Of a DNA stretch of 50,542 bases, positions 1-11,876 are shown piece by piece. A program made the position numbers and the translations under genes. Where the stretch lies: contig JAPLAE010000093.1 of assembly GCA_026393455.1 (NCBI GenBank), positions 1-50,542 on the forward strand. The letters are read 5' to 3'. Under the pieces are notes generated by a model that made no database searches, was not told the origin of the DNA, and worked only from the letters and a program-made list of their open reading frames with translations. This stretch comes from Actinomycetota bacterium (lineage in GTDB: Bacteria > Actinomycetota > Acidimicrobiia > Acidimicrobiales > Acidimicrobilacustridaceae). Position 1 is the stretch's first letter; the number at the start of each line of letters is the position of its first letter.

Positions 1-920
1 CTGAACCCTTCATCGAGGCCAACCGATGGCTCCCACCCGAGGATCCTTCTGGTCTCGCGCTGGTCAAACCAGTGGGCGACCGATAACTGCCGAGCAGCAA
101 AATGGGTGAGCGGCGGCTCAGAGCCGGGCCACACCCGATCAATGACCGAACCGATCCGGGCGGCAAGTGGCGCGGAGATCGACTTGGGTGAGCGAGTAAC
201 TCCTGCAGCATCGAGGATCGACGAGACCAGATCGCGTAACGGACGCGGTTCGCTGCCAGTGACGACCAAGGGCTCGAGCGTCGCTTCGTCGCCCGCGTTG
301 CAGTGATCTAGCGCGGCGACGATCGCTGTTGCCGCGTCGTCGACATAGGTCGTGTCCACCAACGCTCGCCCACCGTCGGGCAGTGCCAATCGACCAGCGC
401 GAGCACGATCGACAATTCGACCGATGAGTTGCGTGTCGCCAGGGCCCCACACCAGATGCGGACGAATGACGACAGTCGGAACGGTTGTTTCTTTGCGCAC
501 GAACGATTCGGCCATCGCTTTTGAACGTGTGTAACCGTCGCCTCCGTCGTAATCGGCGGCGAGCGCTGTCGATCCGACACTGGGTGCGTCGTGGAATGCC
601 ACCGACGGACTCGAAATGTGCACAAACCTGCCGCTCGCCGTTGCCGCCGCCAGTGCGTTGCGAGTTCCGTCGACGTTGATGGCCAGCATCTCGTTCCACG
701 ACGCCTTCGGAGCAACAAGGGCAGCGAGGTGAATCACCGCATCGGCATCGCGTGCTGCGTGCAGAACGGCTGAGCGATCACGAATATCCCCCCGCTCATC
801 GATTGCAGTTGATCCCGATGCGCTGCGTTGAAAACAGACCACGTGATCGCCGCGCTCCACGAGCAAATTCGCAACCGTCCTGCCAAGAAGACTCGAGCCG
901 CCCGTGACGAGAACGTTCAT
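1..920 (-). CDS. oleD: OleD-type NAD(P)-dependent 2-alkyl-3-oxoalkanoate reductase, C-terminus cut by window edge
   Basis: An open frame runs from ATG at 918-920 to the window edge without a stop, so about 306 residues are visible and the C-terminus is missing. The start opens with MNVLVTGGSSLLG, a Rossmann TGGxxxxG nucleotide-binding loop, and the short-chain-dehydrogenase YxxxK active site appears as YTRSK near residue 146. This is the extended SDR / 3-beta-HSD-epimerase family. By family knowledge OleD reduces the 2-alkyl-3-ketoacid made by OleA to the beta-hydroxy acid used by OleC. The start overlaps the stop of the OleBC gene as ATGA (920-917), which implies translational coupling. The oleD assignment rests mainly on position behind oleA and oleBC; the fold alone would fit many epimerase-like reductases. 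Confidence 0.85.
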   Translation of the reverse strand, partial: MNVLVTGGSSLLGRTVANLLVERGDHVVCFQRSASGSTAIDERGDIRDRSAVLHAARDADAVIHLAALVAPKASWNEMLAINVDGTRNALAAATASGRFVHISSPSVAFHDAPSVGSTALAADYDGGDGYTRSKAMAESFVRKETTVPTVVIRPHLVWGPGDTQLIGRIVDRARAGRLALPDGGRALVDTTYVDDAATAIVAALDHCNAGDEATLEPLVVTGSEPRPLRDLVSSILDAAGVTRSPKSISAPLAARIGSVIDRVWPGSEPPLTHFAARQLSVAHWFDQRETRRILGWEPSVGLDEGF

Positions 921-3364
921 CTTCCCGCCAGGAACGTCGAGGCAGACTCGACCAAGAGTTCGCGTTTCACCTTCGACTGATGCCTGATATCGACGGGCAA
1001 ATCCCCTTCGAGCACTGCGGCAATATCGAATACTGAGCTGGCGCGCACCGATGCCGTTATTTGGGGATCAGCAAGCCGCAGTTTCCCTTCAGCCTGAATC
1101 ACCACCGCAATTACTTGGGTTCCCCTTGGGCCAATGCCCACAGCAGCCACTTGACGGCCCAAACCCTTTGCAATCGGATCCTCAACCAGCGCAGACGGGA
1201 CAACCTGAGTCGCAAGGAACAGCGCGTGTTGCAAGCGACCAAGTTGATGAACGTCGCCGTTTGCAGCGATCCGCCCGAGATCGCCGGTGCGGTGGAATCG
1301 AACACCATCAATTGAAACCTCGGAGCGATGTTCTGTTGACCACTGTCGTTCGTAACCCTCGAACATCCATGAAGCATGAACGGCCAGTTCTCCCCATTCG
1401 CCGACTGCTACCGGTTCAGGGTTCGAATCATCGAGCGAAACGACCACAGCCTTGGCCCCATTGAGAACCTTTCCGGTATTGGTTCCGTCGCCAATCTGCT
1501 GCGTTGCGCCCACGCCGTCAGTCAGCGGCATGGCTTCGGTCATGCCCCAGGGCGAGCGAACATCGGCATCGGTGACTGCGGCAATCGCGGTTGCCAACTC
1601 GGTGGAGATCGGAGCACCAGCGAGCATCACGAGACGAAGCGCGGCTTTACGACCCGCAGCAGTAGCGGCAATTCGTCGAGCCGAAGCCGGTGAAAGCCAA
1701 GCAACGTCAACCTGTGATGAAGCGAGGACCTGTGCGAATCGATCGAAATCGAGTTCCGAAGGTTTTGTGACATCGATATCGGGCAACACACACGGAACGC
1801 CGAGCGCGGGCCCAAGCAGAATGAACGGTGCGAACGACGTAACGAAACCGTGTTCGCTCGACATCGCGAACGATTCGCTTATGACATCGCGCTGCGCCGC
1901 TAAGGCCCCATGCGTGTAGCGAACAGGTTTGGCGGGACCAGTTGAACCCGAGGTGTGCACGACTGCTGCTTCAGACTCGGGAGCAAGCGGCGGAAGTTGC
2001 GATTGAGACGTGGACCGATGCGTCGTCAACGAAAGTGCACGTGGGAATCGACTAGTGCAGACCATTCGCGCGCCAGGTGTCCAGCCCAAGGTTCTCGCTG
2101 CCGTCAGAGTTTTTGAGGTTCCAAATACCCACTGTGGGTTTGCACCTCTGAGAACCGTTCGAAGTCCTCGTGCACCGAGTCCGCTGTCAGCCACAACAAG
2201 GGCGCCACCGGCAAGCCATACGCCGTAGGCCGCAGCGAGCAGCTCCGCTCCGGGCGGCACGAGCATCGCAACACGATCACCGACTTCAAGCCCCGCCTCC
2301 ATCAGCATGCGCGCAATGTCTTGGGCCTCGATCGCTAATGACTCCCACGAAACGGAACCGCTGCGATCAGTAAATGCCGCGGACTTATCTTGGGAACGAG
2401 AACGAAGCGCTTCGGTTATCGCGGTAAATGAGTGAGGGTCGACCTCGTCTCGTTTGGAGTTGACGAACTCATTAGTCGAATGATCGGGACCAAGCACATC
2501 GTTAAGCCACGACGATGCGACGGCAGCCATGGGCTCGTCGAGTGGAACCAGATGGGCAGCTTCGGGGAAACGATGGACATCGGCATGGGGCGCTCGTCGC
2601 AGAAGATCGGCAAGAAAGCGATCGTGAAATACCGGGTCACGACCACCCCAGACGAGTAACAACGGAACCTGAAGGTTCGAAAGGTTGTCGGCTGATTTCT
2701 GCAGCGCCAACCATGACTCGTCTTTTTCACTCAATGGAATGTCGGTCACAAAGTCTGCAACCGCGGCGCGACGATCGGCTTTCCGGTACGGGGCGCGCAG
2801 CGCTTCCCGATACTGCTTCTTCGTCATCGCTGCAGTACCGGAAACAAAGACAGAGGTGCGACGGCACAACAGATCGACGAATCGACGCGCCGTTGAAATG
2901 AGAGGCGGCACCTTCGTGTTTTCGGGCAGGCCCACTCCGGTATTACCCAGAATTACGGCGCGCACATCGAGCGAGGAAGCGGCACCGAGTGCTACCGGGC
3001 CGCCCCAATCATGGGCAGCGAGCACAAGCGGGCCCGAGGTGTGCTGTTCGCAGAATGCAACAAGTTCTGCGACTCGCTCTTCGAGTGTTCGTCGCGTCGA
3101 GCGCTGCGACCAACCCATGCCGGTTTGATCAACAGCAATAACTCGCCATTCCGGCCTCAACGTTTCAAGGAAGTCTTTCCAGAGATACCCCCACGTGGGG
3201 TTGCCATGAACGCAGACAATCGTTCCGCGAGGTCCTTCGCCAGTATCGAGAATGCTCCATTCCACATCTGCAACACCAGAACGTTCGATGCGAACCGTTC
3301 GGTGCCACTGTGGATCAATCCCCCACCGTTCCCAGTCGGCGACAGACGGAGTTTCAATCGTCAA
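917..3364 (-). CDS. oleBC: OleBC fusion: beta-lactone decarboxylase - beta-lactone synthetase
   Basis: 815 residues in two parts. Residues 1-290 are an alpha/beta hydrolase of the haloalkane-dehalogenase type: HGNPTW oxyanion motif (53-58), nucleophile D119 in AAHDWGG, acid D243 in GGRDPVF, and base H271. Residues about 310-815 are an acyl-AMP-ligase-type enzyme with the P-loop TSGSTGPAKP (471-480) and a TGD motif in FHRTGDLGRI. By family knowledge OleC turns the beta-hydroxy acid into a cis-beta-lactone using ATP, and OleB decarboxylates that lactone to an internal olefin. OleB-OleC fusions are known from Actinobacteria such as Micrococcus. The start is TTG, 6 nt after the oleA stop, with no good ribosome binding site and no alternative start nearby, so translation is probably coupled to oleA. 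The 3' end overlaps oleD by ATGA. Confidence 0.9.
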   Translation of the reverse strand: MTIETPSVADWERWGIDPQWHRTVRIERSGVADVEWSILDTGEGPRGTIVCVHGNPTWGYLWKDFLETLRPEWRVIAVDQTGMGWSQRSTRRTLEERVAELVAFCEQHTSGPLVLAAHDWGGPVALGAASSLDVRAVILGNTGVGLPENTKVPPLISTARRFVDLLCRRTSVFVSGTAAMTKKQYREALRAPYRKADRRAAVADFVTDIPLSEKDESWLALQKSADNLSNLQVPLLLVWGGRDPVFHDRFLADLLRRAPHADVHRFPEAAHLVPLDEPMAAVASSWLNDVLGPDHSTNEFVNSKRDEVDPHSFTAITEALRSRSQDKSAAFTDRSGSVSWESLAIEAQDIARMLMEAGLEVGDRVAMLVPPGAELLAAAYGVWLAGGALVVADSGLGARGLRTVLRGANPQWVFGTSKTLTAARTLGWTPGARMVCTSRFPRALSLTTHRSTSQSQLPPLAPESEAAVVHTSGSTGPAKPVRYTHGALAAQRDVISESFAMSSEHGFVTSFAPFILLGPALGVPCVLPDIDVTKPSELDFDRFAQVLASSQVDVAWLSPASARRIAATAAGRKAALRLVMLAGAPISTELATAIAAVTDADVRSPWGMTEAMPLTDGVGATQQIGDGTNTGKVLNGAKAVVVSLDDSNPEPVAVGEWGELAVHASWMFEGYERQWSTEHRSEVSIDGVRFHRTGDLGRIAANGDVHQLGRLQHALFLATQVVPSALVEDPIAKGLGRQVAAVGIGPRGTQVIAVVIQAEGKLRLADPQITASVRASSVFDIAAVLEGDLPVDIRHQSKVKRELLVESASTFLAGR

Positions 3365-3370
3365 CGCGTA

Positions 3371-4384
3371 CTACCAAATCAGTTCGGCGACCGAACAGTT
3401 GAGTCCCGATCCGATCCCCATTAGAAGTACGCGGTCACCCACTGTCAACTGATCTGCGGTGACTGACAACGTGTAAGGAACTGCTGCCGGCCCAATGTTT
3501 CCGAACTCTGGATAGGTGAGCGGCACGCGAGATGTATCGATCGACAACAACTCACAAAGTTTCGTGGTGTGCACAGCCGAGACCTGATGAAGGATGTACG
3601 TGTCGCAGTTCGACCACTGCCAACCTTCGGCCAGCGCGTCGTTGAAGGTGACTTCAGCGAGATCAAGACCTGATTCGAGCAGAGCCGCCGTATCGGTGCG
3701 CATCTCGTCGAGATCACCAACACAGAGATCGTGATACTTCGTTGCTGCCCGTGTGACTCCCCCGAGGAACTGATGCGAACCCTGACGAGGACCACCCATC
3801 ACCATCGCTGCTGCGCCCGAACCTAGGGTGAGCGATGCGAACTGATCGAACACATCGGTGAGCGTGGAAGACGAGTCTTGAAGCCGAGCAATGGTCTGCG
3901 TCTGTGGTTGACGACTTCCTTCGCCATCGACGATGAGCGCCACCCTTGCTTGGCCCGACTCGATCATCGATGACGCGAGCGTCATTGCGTTGATGAAACC
4001 CAAGCACGCATTGCCGAGGTCGAAGTTCATTGCATTCGGTGAAAGACCCAACCGGTTGTGAACGGCGCAAGCAATGCTGGGCTCGAGATGGTGTTTGCAC
4101 ACTGAGGTGGAAATCAGCAGATCGACTTCCTCGGGGGCAACGCCCGCTTGTTCAAGCGCAAGAACTCCGGCCCGGGCTGCAGCATCGTCGAATGTGACAT
4201 CTTCAGGCCACCATCGACGCGCTCGGATACCGGCGACTGATTCGAGAAGTCCGGGACGAACGCCAACGCGTTCATAGGTTTCGGCCAGTTGTTCGTCGAT
4301 CCACGCCGAGGTGATGATCTCGGGAGCATCCACATGGGAGACCGACCACACATGGGATCGGGCGAACGTAACCGGTGAACTCAC
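3371..4384 (-). CDS. oleA: OleA, thiolase-fold acyl-CoA head-to-head condensing enzyme
   Basis: 337 residues of the FabH/KASIII-like thiolase superfamily. The nucleophile C127 lies in GNACLGF, followed by H266 in ILHQVS and N296 in FGNIGPA, the Cys-His-Asn triad. E101 stands exactly 26 residues before the cysteine, matching the Glu117-Cys143 spacing of Xanthomonas OleA, where the Glu deprotonates the second substrate. OleA performs non-decarboxylative Claisen condensation of two fatty acyl-CoAs to a 2-alkyl-3-ketoacid. It is the first gene of the oleA-oleBC-oleD operon. The start is GTG, placed 6 nt after a TAGGCT -10 box (4391-4396), consistent with leaderless mRNA. Without its neighbours it could be read as a KASIII; the OleBC gene next door makes OleA the better call. 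Confidence 0.9.
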   Translation of the reverse strand: MSSPVTFARSHVWSVSHVDAPEIITSAWIDEQLAETYERVGVRPGLLESVAGIRARRWWPEDVTFDDAAARAGVLALEQAGVAPEEVDLLISTSVCKHHLEPSIACAVHNRLGLSPNAMNFDLGNACLGFINAMTLASSMIESGQARVALIVDGEGSRQPQTQTIARLQDSSSTLTDVFDQFASLTLGSGAAAMVMGGPRQGSHQFLGGVTRAATKYHDLCVGDLDEMRTDTAALLESGLDLAEVTFNDALAEGWQWSNCDTYILHQVSAVHTTKLCELLSIDTSRVPLTYPEFGNIGPAAVPYTLSVTADQLTVGDRVLLMGIGSGLNCSVAELIW

Positions 4385-4424: not shown

Positions 4425-5306
4425 TCAACTCAATAGCGCCGGAGCAAGGCGTTGCCACGTCTCCATAGGGATCGAAGTCCCGTCGGATGGGAGAACTTGG
4501 ATACATACGTGATCTGCGCCGGCGTCGTGATGGGCCTTGACCCGATCGGCGATCGCACCTTCATCGCCCCACGCCACGATGGCGTCAACAAGGCGATCGG
4601 ACCCGCCATCGGCAATATCGGCATCGGTGAATCCGAATCGCTTCAGATTGTTCGTGTAATTCGGAAGCGTGAGGTACATCGACATGTGGCCGCGAGCTAT
4701 CTCACGAGCTTTCGCTGGATCGGTTTCAAGAACGACTGCTTGTTCTGGGCACAACCAACCACGAGCACCCATGACCTCGCGTGCGAATGCAGTGTGCTCG
4801 ACCGGAATGAAATACGGATGCGCACCCTGCGTGCGTTCTGCTGCGAGCTCAAGCATCTTCGGCCCAAGAGCGGCCAGAACTTTTTGCGGTGGAGCGCTCG
4901 GTGGCGCTGCGGTGAACAATCCATTGTCCATCCCGTCGAGGTACGACTTCATCGCCGAATAAGGCTTTGAATAGTCGTGACCACGAAGCCCAGCCACCAT
5001 CACTTCGTGACTCACGCCAAGCCCTAGAAGAAAGCGATCAGGGAACGCTTCTGAGACGGTGTTCCACGCTGAGTTCGCGCACAGCGCGTCTCGGGCGTAA
5101 ATCGAAGCGATGCCTGTGGCGACAACCATCTTCTTTGAAGCGGCCAGCAACAGCGTTGAGCTGACAAACGATTCACGGCCGATCATTTCTGGGATCCACA
5201 GAGCCCCGTATCCCAGTTCATCAATTTCTGCTGCAGTCTCCTGCGCCAGAGAAGACGGAACAAGATCAAGTTGATAGGCCCACAGGCCAACGCGTCCAAG
5301 ATTCAT
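4425..5306 (-). CDS. LLM-class F420-dependent oxidoreductase
   Basis: 293 residues of the luciferase-like monooxygenase fold (TIM barrel). It opens with MNLGRVGLWAYQLDLVP, contains a family-typical strand with ALWIPEMIGRES, and FLLGLGVSHE in the position of the usual GLG-SG strand. Such proteins in Actinobacteria mostly use coenzyme F420 for hydride transfer; the substrate cannot be read. The start was set at ATG 5304-5306: upstream in-frame sequence overlaps the divergent DUF2752 gene and looks non-coding. A TATGGT -10 box sits 6 nt before the start; the spacer GAGGGG could also serve as an SD. The gene ends 40 bp before oleA in the same direction. Confidence 0.85.
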   Translation of the reverse strand: MNLGRVGLWAYQLDLVPSSLAQETAAEIDELGYGALWIPEMIGRESFVSSTLLLAASKKMVVATGIASIYARDALCANSAWNTVSEAFPDRFLLGLGVSHEVMVAGLRGHDYSKPYSAMKSYLDGMDNGLFTAAPPSAPPQKVLAALGPKMLELAAERTQGAHPYFIPVEHTAFAREVMGARGWLCPEQAVVLETDPAKAREIARGHMSMYLTLPNYTNNLKRFGFTDADIADGGSDRLVDAIVAWGDEGAIADRVKAHHDAGADHVCIQVLPSDGTSIPMETWQRLAPALLS

Positions 5307-5312
5307 CCCCTC

Positions 5313-5318
5313 ACCATA
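5313..5318 (-). promoter_or_regulatory. Candidate -10 box (TATGGT), LLM oxidoreductase
   Basis: TATGGT on the minus strand lies 6 nt before the ATG at 5306. It is back to back with the DUF2752 -10 box, so the 58 bp between these divergent genes carries two promoters. Confidence 0.45.
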
Positions 5319-5351
5319 GGCAACGACAGCAGGTCGTGACGAGGTCGGCTC

Positions 5352-5357
5352 TACACT
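5352..5357 (+). promoter_or_regulatory. Candidate -10 box (TACACT), DUF2752 gene
   Basis: TACACT is followed by 7 nt and the GTG start at 5365, without a Shine-Dalgarno sequence. This fits leaderless transcription. Confidence 0.5.
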
Positions 5358-5364
5358 CGAAGAC

Positions 5365-5838
5365 GTGCTGACGAACCCCGTTGATTCGCCAAGTGAGGCA
5401 AGTTCCCCTCTCGGTGCGAACGCGGCGCGCACTCGTCGCATCAACCCCGGGATGGCAATCGCCGGCGGAATCGCGATTGCTGGATGTGTCGTCGTCGGCA
5501 TCGTCGACCCAAACAAAACGCAGGTCTTCCCCGCCTGTGCCTTCAGGGCGATGACTGGCCTCGATTGCCCCGGTTGCGGAATGACTCGTGGGCTCCATGC
5601 GCTACTCAACGGAGACGTGCTGCGAGCCATGAACCACAACATTTTGCTCGTCGTCATTCTTGCGACAAGTGCGGTGTGGTTTGGTTGGAATGCGATTGCT
5701 CGACGTATGGGCAAGCGCCAACTTCACTTTGAATTCAAACGCAATACCTGGATCGCAATCGGAGTCACAGTGTTCGCGTTCTGGGTTGTGCGCAATCTCC
5801 CTTGGGCACCGTTCAACTGGTTGGGCTCAGGCGCGTAA
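5365..5838 (+). CDS. DUF2752 membrane protein
   Basis: 157 residues. The hallmark C-P-x-C-G-x-T-R motif is present as CPGCGMTR (68-75) with an upstream cysteine at 58, followed by the family-typical LHALLNGDVLRAMNHN segment. Hydrophobic stretches at about 30-47, 92-110 and 130-145 suggest three membrane segments. The function of DUF2752 is not known; the paired cysteines suggest metal binding or redox but this is inference. The start is GTG just after a -10 box. It stands alone on the plus strand, divergent from the F420-type oxidoreductase and convergent with the gamma-carbonic-anhydrase-like gene 16 bp away. Confidence 0.85.
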   Translation: MLTNPVDSPSEASSPLGANAARTRRINPGMAIAGGIAIAGCVVVGIVDPNKTQVFPACAFRAMTGLDCPGCGMTRGLHALLNGDVLRAMNHNILLVVILATSAVWFGWNAIARRMGKRQLHFEFKRNTWIAIGVTVFAFWVVRNLPWAPFNWLGSGA

Positions 5839-9596: not shown

Positions 9597-10112
9597 TCAG
9601 TCTTCGGTGAAAACGTCTTCGCCGTATGGAAGTCCACGCTGCGGAGCGAACTCGCGCTTCCACACCATGACTCGGCGGCGAAATTCGCAGACCTCTTCGG
9701 AACGCTGATTAATACCTTTGGTCTCGACAGTCACAATGCCGCGCTTGCCATCGGAAGTTTCCTTTTTGGCTAGAACCTTGGTAACGGCATAAATCGTGTC
9801 GCCATGAAATGTCGGCTTGGCATGTTTCAGTGATTCCACTTCGAGGTTGGCGATTGCCGCCCCGCTTACATCAGGGACGCTCATGCCCAGGACAAGCGAA
9901 TACACGAGATTGCCGACGACAAGCGGTTGGCCCATCGGCGACTCGTTCTCGGCGAACCAGTTATTGGTATGCGTTGGGTGGTGATTCATGGTGATCATGC
10001 AGAAAAGGTGGTCGTCGGCTTCGGTAATGGTCTTCCCTGGCCAATGGCGATAGACGTCGCCCACCTCGAAGTCTTCAAAGTGGCGGCCGAATGGACGATC
10101 ATGAACAGTCAC
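9597..10112 (-). CDS. mch: MaoC-family hydratase, probable mesaconyl-CoA hydratase
   Basis: 171 residues with a single hot-dog MaoC domain: FEDFEVGDVYRHWPG, then ITEADDHLF and MNHHPTHTNNWFAE, and GNLVYSLVLGMSVPDVSG, ending with HGDTIYAVTKV. I recall very similar sequence in Streptomyces MeaC, the MaoC protein next to ccr/meaA in the ethylmalonyl-CoA pathway, which hydrates mesaconyl-C1-CoA to beta-methylmalyl-CoA. The Rhodobacter enzyme is about twice as long, so this is the short actinobacterial form. The GTG start has AGGAGA seven nt upstream. The methylsuccinyl-CoA dehydrogenase-like and malyl-CoA lyase-like genes nearby support the role. The next gene downstream, 3 nt away, is mutY. Confidence 0.8.
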   Translation of the reverse strand: MTVHDRPFGRHFEDFEVGDVYRHWPGKTITEADDHLFCMITMNHHPTHTNNWFAENESPMGQPLVVGNLVYSLVLGMSVPDVSGAAIANLEVESLKHAKPTFHGDTIYAVTKVLAKKETSDGKRGIVTVETKGINQRSEEVCEFRRRVMVWKREFAPQRGLPYGEDVFTED

Positions 10113-10142
10113 AACAACTCTCCTCTGCAGATGTCAACGATG

Positions 10143-10148
10143 AGCCTA
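10143..10148 (-). promoter_or_regulatory. Candidate -10 box (TAGGCT), mch-mutY
   Basis: TAGGCT on the minus strand lies 30 nt before the GTG of the MaoC gene and leaves a short leader that contains the AGGAGA ribosome site. The hexamer is the same as before oleA. Confidence 0.35.
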
Positions 10149-10162
10149 GGAGTTTCCGAAGG

Positions 10163-10168
10163 TAGATT
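10163..10168 (+). promoter_or_regulatory. Candidate -10 box (TAGATT), amidohydrolase
   Basis: TAGATT lies 22 nt before the ATG at 10191. The leader contains an AGGGGGA Shine-Dalgarno, so this gene would be leadered, unlike many others here. Confidence 0.35.
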
Positions 10169-10190
10169 CGACCCAGACACAGGGGGAACC

Positions 10191-11876
10191 ATGAACGATC
10201 TACTGATCACAGGCGGCACAGTCGTCGACGGCACAGGCGCACCGACCTTTACTGCTGATGTTCGAGTCCAAGGCGGCGTCATCACCGAGGTAGGGCCAAA
10301 CCTCGAGCCTCGAGGCGAAACGATCATCGATGCGACGGGTTGTCTCGTTGCCCCTGGGATCATCGACACCCATACCCACCTCGATGGCGCGATGTGGTGG
10401 AACCCTGAGCTCGATCCCCTGCCCGCATACGGAAACACCTCAATGGTGTTTGGCAATTGCGGAAACTCGATTGCTCCGCTCAAAGGCGAACAACGCGACG
10501 AAATAGTCGACCTCCTGTGTTTCCTTGAAGACCTTCCCCTGAAGGCGTTCGAACAAGAGATTCCTTGGTCGTGGCAGTCATGGCCCGAGTACATGGACGC
10601 GCTTCGCACACAGCCAACCGCGGTTCATGTCGCCGGATACCTCGGACATCTCGCGTTGCGCACCTGGGTCATGGGAGCCGATGCGTGGTCGCGCTCTGCG
10701 ACCACTGATGAAATTGCCGAGATGTGCGCGGTCCTCGACGAAGGCCTCGCCGCAGGTGCTCTCGGGTTGAGCATCAATCACTTCGACAAAGATCGCTCCC
10801 TCCGTCTCGTTCCTGGCTTTTTCGCCGAGGACGAGGAATTTCTCGCCCTCTTCCGCGTCGTCGCTCTCCACAAGCCCGCAACGGTTCAGATGATCACTCG
10901 CTTTAATGACACCGAGTTATCAATTGTCGATGCCAAACGTTTCGGCGCCATCGTTCGCGAAAGCGGCGTGCGCGCTCAGTACACCGGTATTCCTTTCAAC
11001 GAGCGTGATGCAGATCGCCAAACGGAATGGTGGGAACTTCACGAACAACTGAACGCTGATGGTGCCGACATGTGGCCAATGGTGAACTGCAAACCACTGG
11101 CGCCATTTTTCGGATTTGAAAGTTCACTCGTCTTCCAACGCGTGCCTGCGTGGAACGAAGTCATCAACGGTCCGACCGATGTGAAACTTTCGACATTGGC
11201 CGACCCCACGTGGCGCGACAAGGCTCGCACCGACTGGGATAACCGAACCCGATCAAGTCTTTCGAGAATCGATCGACCTCACGAGATGATTCTGACTATC
11301 TCTGAAACTGGGGTCGGTCCACTCGGAATCTCGCTACAGGATCTCGCCGATCAAACAGGACTACATGTTTCCGACGCGCTTGCCGATTGGGTTGTCGCCA
11401 ATGGTCTTGCCTCCCAGATGATGGGTATCCCAGAACGATTGAGCGAACGCGACGTTGTGCGAGCCATTCGTGACCCGCACACAGTGTTCAACATCAACGA
11501 CAGCGGCGCCCACCTTCAACTCTTCTCAGCGGCGGGTGAACACCTCTACATACTCACCCATTACGTCCGCGACGCTGGGCTCATCAGCATCGAAGAAGCG
11601 ATCCATGTCCTCACTGGCCGCACGGCCGAATTCTTTGGTCTCACCGACCGCGGCGTAATTGCTGAGGGAAAGATCGCTGATCTCGTGGTGTTTCGTCTTG
11701 AAGACCTTGAGCTTCGGGCCGAGGAACGCGCCTACGACGTTCCGCATGGGACTTGGCGCTTCACTCGCGCTCCTGCGGGTTTCCGCGCCACCATCGCTGG
11801 GGGCGTTCCCACGTGGATCAATGGCGCTTCGACCGGTGCTCATCCCGGACAGGTTCTTCAACCCATCAAACACTGA
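10191..11876 (+). CDS. N-acyl-D-amino-acid deacylase-like amidohydrolase
   Basis: 561 residues of the amidohydrolase superfamily (D-aminoacylase / AmidoHydrolase 3 group). The N-terminal beta-sandwich LLITGGTVVDGTGAP is followed by the metal motif IIDTHTHLDG (58-66, H61 and H63), then LGLSINHFDKDR, and a C-terminal INDSGAHLQL with the conserved Asp/His, ending in an EGKIADLVVF strand. It hydrolyses an amide or cyclic amide; N-acyl-D-amino acids are the family-typical substrate but the actual one is unknown. The start at ATG 10191 was chosen for the AGGGGGA site 6 nt upstream; longer in-frame sequence overlaps the divergent MaoC gene. A monooxygenase and a cupin follow on the same strand. Confidence 0.8.
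   Translation: MNDLLITGGTVVDGTGAPTFTADVRVQGGVITEVGPNLEPRGETIIDATGCLVAPGIIDTHTHLDGAMWWNPELDPLPAYGNTSMVFGNCGNSIAPLKGEQRDEIVDLLCFLEDLPLKAFEQEIPWSWQSWPEYMDALRTQPTAVHVAGYLGHLALRTWVMGADAWSRSATTDEIAEMCAVLDEGLAAGALGLSINHFDKDRSLRLVPGFFAEDEEFLALFRVVALHKPATVQMITRFNDTELSIVDAKRFGAIVRESGVRAQYTGIPFNERDADRQTEWWELHEQLNADGADMWPMVNCKPLAPFFGFESSLVFQRVPAWNEVINGPTDVKLSTLADPTWRDKARTDWDNRTRSSLSRIDRPHEMILTISETGVGPLGISLQDLADQTGLHVSDALADWVVANGLASQMMGIPERLSERDVVRAIRDPHTVFNINDSGAHLQLFSAAGEHLYILTHYVRDAGLISIEEAIHVLTGRTAEFFGLTDRGVIAEGKIADLVVFRLEDLELRAEERAYDVPHGTWRFTRAPAGFRATIAGGVPTWINGASTGAHPGQVLQPIKH

Follow-up and report, generated by a model that had tools for sequence, protein, structure and literature searches.

A predicted oleA-oleBC-oleD cluster for long-chain internal alkenes in an acidimicrobial MAG

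Using family models, alignments and trees, we identified three adjacent genes, oleA, oleBC and oleD, that very probably form an ordinary ole operon for the production of long-chain internal alkenes, as judged from their sequences. The window analysed here is a stretch of 50,542 nucleotides and represents the entire contig C25 of a MAG that totals 2,278,588 bases on 152 contigs and is 82.9% complete. All three genes are on the minus strand and run from position 4384 to the end of the contig. The novelty of the locus seems to be taxonomic, the enzymes and the pathway being already known. Features of the genes and their relatives are described below.

The first gene, oleA (4384-3371, minus strand), has a GTG start and encodes a thiolase-fold protein of 337 amino acids that is predicted to join two fatty acyl-CoAs. 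It is separated by a gap of 6 bases from oleBC (3364-917, minus strand), which has a TTG start and carries both domains in one open frame of 815 amino acids. The third gene, oleD (920-3, minus strand), encodes a putative 2-alkyl-3-oxoalkanoate reductase of 306 amino acids and is still open at the contig end. These three adjoining frames bear out the gene order proposed in a preliminary description of this DNA, and the ATGA overlap between the oleBC stop and the oleD start, also proposed there, can be read from the sequence at 920-917 (minus strand). That description took the overlap as a sign that the enzymes form one assembly; the junction is informative on translation but not on this point. 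No clear ribosome-binding site was seen by eye before either oleA or oleBC.

An F420-type LLM oxidoreductase is located at 4425-5714 on the minus strand, its end lying some 40 bases from oleA on the upstream side. The same type of gene holds this place beside oleA in two of the named loci, L036 and L037, and the listed frame of 429 amino acids is probably over-long, because its counterpart has 293. We considered and rejected a wider functional operon: the F420-type oxidoreductase upstream and sufB downstream recur within the genus, but the other families examined have different flanks.

The fusion of oleB to oleC, which had been claimed earlier, is real, because Pfam places an alpha/beta hydrolase domain (Abhydrolase_1, residues 48-278) and an AMP-binding domain (residues 325-671) in the same 815-residue frame. 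The OleB part, a putative beta-lactone decarboxylase, spans approximately residues 1-295 (2480..3364, minus strand). It contains D119 and H271, both at the positions where they had been placed, together with D243 and N55, and all four residues are invariant in the 64 aligned OleBC rows (62 of the 71 fused named loci, the locus L018 and the window; the others were too short). The putative nucleophile D119 and the acid D243 line up with the haloalkane-dehalogenase-like chains 8ckp and 8ooh, and H271 lines up with 8ooh. The OleB part has no match to an OleB-specific family model, and the nearest named models are those of haloalkane dehalogenases.

The OleC part, a putative beta-lactone synthetase, spans approximately residues 316-815 (920..2419, minus strand). 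Residues of the A3, A5, A7, A8 and A10 motifs are present, and the nine OleC motif residues that were checked are identical in 64 of 64 aligned proteins. The sequence TSGSTGPAK at residues 471-479 had been called a P-loop; the motif is indeed there, but the label is loose, since adenylate-forming enzymes have this stretch as their A3 core motif. The scores are 226 bits on NF006754 (E 5.7e-67), 180 bits on NF045786, the Xanthomonas beta-lactone synthetase (OleC) model, which is below its cut-off of 900, and 107 bits on the generic fatty-acid ligase model NF004837. By these scores, the OleC part resembles beta-lactone synthetase more closely than it does other ligases. Neither OleC nor OleD reaches the strict cut-offs of its Xanthomonas or Shewanella models. 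Within the genus, OleBC evolves faster than OleA, with identities of 91, 78 and 69% as compared to 98, 92 and 87% (L005-L007).

In the published pathway, condensation of two activated fatty acids by OleA is followed by reduction (OleD) and formation of a lactone (OleC), from which OleB splits off CO2, giving a cis internal alkene (PMC7158056, as far as the available text goes). The window sequence contains no departure from this scheme. We infer every reaction and the product from characterised relatives: OleA would carry out a non-decarboxylative head-to-head condensation of two fatty acyl-CoAs, OleD would reduce the keto group of the OleA product, the OleC part would close the beta-lactone with the use of ATP, and the OleB part, tethered to OleC, would remove CO2, so that an alkene with an internal cis double bond is formed. 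The tether between OleB and OleC may ease the hand-over of the lactone.

An alkene is likelier than a beta-lactone as the end product, because the OleB part looks intact. Some Actinobacteria make beta-lactones from oleACD clusters that have no oleB (PMC7064751, available in part), and a beta-lactone or a compound derived from one could be formed here as well if the OleB part were weak or inactive. However, OleB is present and fused, its four residues are retained in every aligned row, and the cluster contains neither a P450 nor a glycosyltransferase, all of which makes such a product improbable.

Three matches to PF00487 (fatty acid desaturase, a broad family) score above the cut-off in the window genome, and a family search of the same genome found no match to pfaD, which points to ordinary saturated or monounsaturated acyl-CoAs as the more probable substrates. 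Polyunsaturated hydrocarbons, which marine gammaproteobacteria make by way of a Pfa synthase, were rejected as a product because this search of the window genome gave no pfaD match. Within the class, pfaD exceeds the cut-off in only two of the 395 genomes sampled. One of these, G027, also has the full oleA-oleBC-oleD order (L018). In the OleBC tree it falls together with two rows that are filed as Ilumatobacter (support 100). Downstream of its oleD, at no more than about 2 kb and facing it, are two matches to fatty acid desaturase (L166, approximately 9823-11591, minus strand).

The first protein is assigned on sequence grounds as OleA and not as a housekeeping KASIII. It scores 413.2 bits on the family model NF006720 (cut-off 285, E 8.8e-124), on which the solved Xanthomonas OleA chain scores 476 bits and whose cut-off is exceeded in none of 14 control genomes. 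In contrast, it scores only 101 bits on the FabH model TIGR00747, which has a cut-off of 292. Among solved structures, it is closest to the 3row/3s21 group (E 1.6e-83). The comparison with the characterised Xanthomonas enzyme that the preliminary description had proposed as a check gives 148 identities in 331 aligned residues of the 3row chain, with four key residues kept: E101, C127, H266 and N296 of the window protein align on Glu117, Cys143, His285 and Asn315. The codons of E101 (4082..4084, minus strand) and C127 (4004..4006, minus strand) are 26 residues apart. Residues 101-128 fit the pattern published for OleA, EPxx[AS]x(14,18)DxxNACL (PMC7158056, seen in part). This pattern is found in all 80 of the best 80 among at least 541 named loci and in 0 of 20 FabH proteins, although the named loci were collected in part with NACLGF as a seed, so that the last part of the pattern is not independent there.

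A tree of 102 proteins splits 82 OleA rows from 20 FabH rows by one branch with support of 100; it includes one characterised OleA, on a long branch, and FabH as the sole type of KASIII. An OleA that fell inside KASIII had been named beforehand as the result that would count against the assignment, and the two are separate in the tree. If the first gene were instead a KASIII of fatty acid synthesis, its neighbours would be an ordinary hydrolase, ligase and reductase. NF006720 does bear the name 3-oxoacyl-ACP synthase III, but it also takes the characterised OleA. Moreover, the counterpart of Glu117 is present, the three-gene order is conserved in relatives, and the genome has its own FabH elsewhere (contig C41, 330.9 bits on TIGR00747). 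On the family models, the tree, the residues and this separate FabH, we rejected the KASIII reading as very unlikely.

OleD, a putative SDR, carries YTRSK at residues 130-134. Its best model is NF042422 (OleD), with 247.5 bits (E 2.2e-73) against a cut-off of 580 for a protein truncated by the contig end, and the next model that is not OleD gives 78 bits. The counterpart in L036, with 322 amino acids, reaches 253 bits and is likewise below 580. The window OleD is incomplete, because this same-genus counterpart has 322 amino acids rather than 306. The preliminary description had listed three genes with a full set of expected catalytic residues; all of the residues that it gave were found, but the third gene is cut short. 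The E-values for OleA, the OleC part and OleD exclude a chance resemblance.

The arrangement is widely conserved among relatives. A scan of named genomes yielded at least 541 confirmed OleA relatives, of which the best 80 were kept. Among these best 80, OleB and OleC are in one frame in 71 and separate in none, while in 8 the OleB part runs off the end of the sequence. The order oleA-oleBC-oleD on one strand is present in 61 of the same best 80, and 18 of the 19 loci without it stop before oleD would be visible. The exception, L075, has an OleA with no match to OleB, OleC or OleD within 6 kb downstream, and is possibly a stand-alone OleA or part of a different pathway.

All four Ole parts are present in 26 of 30 loci from the class. 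More broadly, 67 of 395 genomes sampled from the class, among them 51 of 267 of good quality, match OleBC in full or in part at E 1e-60 or better, and 35 of 183 genera are represented. Each of the six sampled genomes of the window's genus has a match. In a sample of the phylum, 25 of 396 genomes match OleBC at 1e-100, and in six of these the match is confined to the OleC part. These six (G474, G582, G640, G675, G683 and G744) match at 1e-104 or better in frames of approximately 600-730 amino acids, which are either a separate OleC or another ligase.

The nearest named OleA proteins, taken from the best 80 of at least 541, are 97-98% identical to that of the window and belong to L034 (an Actinomycetota MAG), L035 (an Acidimicrobiia MAG) and L036 (a MAG filed as Candidatus Microthrix). 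An acidimicrobial lineage had been suggested from the sequence, and this agrees with the closest named relatives in that set, which are MAGs of Acidimicrobiia and Acidimicrobiales. From the names of isolates, the habitat is presumably freshwater. The cluster belongs to the window's genus, because a contig of the same-genus genome G220 spans the locus with matching upstream genes: those upstream of oleA in the window match G220 at 92-98% with their order kept, and beyond oleD the G220 contig runs into sufB and a transporter-like gene. Although the MAG is incomplete and fragmented, with the cluster at a contig end, a misbinned or chimeric contig bearing ole genes foreign to the organism is scarcely credible given this agreement with G220 and the matches in all sampled genomes of the genus.

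A survey from 2020 gives Micrococcales as the sole Gram-positive order with ole genes, and neither "Acidimicrob" nor "Ilumatobacter" occurs in its main text (PMC7158056). Within the open-licence literature we found no work tying ole genes to Acidimicrobiia, and the available text of a paper on Ilumatobacter coccineum YM16-304 (PMC3910706) contains neither "olefin" nor "hydrocarbon". The earlier statement that the trait is notable for this lineage is no more than half right, as 67 of the 395 class genomes match OleBC. Among the best 80 of at least 541 named loci, the range of ole genes extends to the window's class, Nitriliruptoraceae, Nanopelagicales and Modestobacter (L111), with taxon names taken from record titles, some of which are plainly wrong. 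Five records, L056, L058, L073, L077 and L089, are titled Bifidobacterium breve (four) or Ferrithrix thermotolerans (one). Their ole genes group with those of other actinobacterial MAGs, L077 being outside the acidimicrobial branch, and the titles look wrong.

A transfer of ole genes from Actinobacteria to the gammaproteobacterium Pseudohaliea rubra has already been reported (PMC7158056, in the part available). In our trees, the OleA of this species (L106) pairs with that of an Acidimicrobiia-labelled MAG, L079 (support 99). Its OleBC groups with the Acidimicrobiia-labelled L080 and L102 (support 88; within a six-row group at 99) and not with Micrococcales. What is added here for Pseudohaliea rubra is a closer predicted donor side. 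It is possible, and we offer it tentatively, that Acidimicrobiia and several further actinobacterial lines have long possessed ole and inherited it largely vertically, that the fusion was made once before these lines split, and that the donor to Pseudohaliea rubra was acidimicrobial-like rather than a member of Micrococcales.

The ole enzymes themselves are known, their taxonomic reach less so, and complete fused clusters can now be placed in Acidimicrobiia. If the trait is indeed old and vertical, uncultured planktonic actinobacteria would be an overlooked source of long-chain alkenes. Should the genes work as predicted, common uncultured aquatic actinobacteria may contribute to biogenic hydrocarbons, and the role of membrane alkenes could be studied in a new class by way of cultured Ilumatobacter.

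The window cluster shares features with three known systems. The OleA of Xanthomonas campestris oleABCD, which has been solved (3row), shares Cys143, Glu117, His285 and Asn315 with the window OleA. In that organism oleB and oleC are separate genes, unlike the fusion in the window. The Micrococcales, namely Micrococcus luteus and its relatives, have the same gene order with oleB and oleC fused (PMC7158056 and PMC7064751, both in part), and the named Micrococcales rows L104 and L110 have a layout identical to that of the window. Over the BLAST match, the window OleA shares 54% identity with that of L104 and 56% with that of L110. However, Micrococcales differ from the window in class, and the window OleA is in a separate branch of 50 rows (support 99). 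The oleB-oleC fusion has been described from certain Actinobacteria, typically Micrococcales, with one outside case in Granulosicoccus (PMC7064751, text available in part). Clusters of the lipstatin and nocardiolactone type (oleACD) have the predicted OleA, OleC and OleD chemistry in common with the window. These clusters are without oleB in the available part of the same source, whereas in the window oleB is present and fused to oleC.
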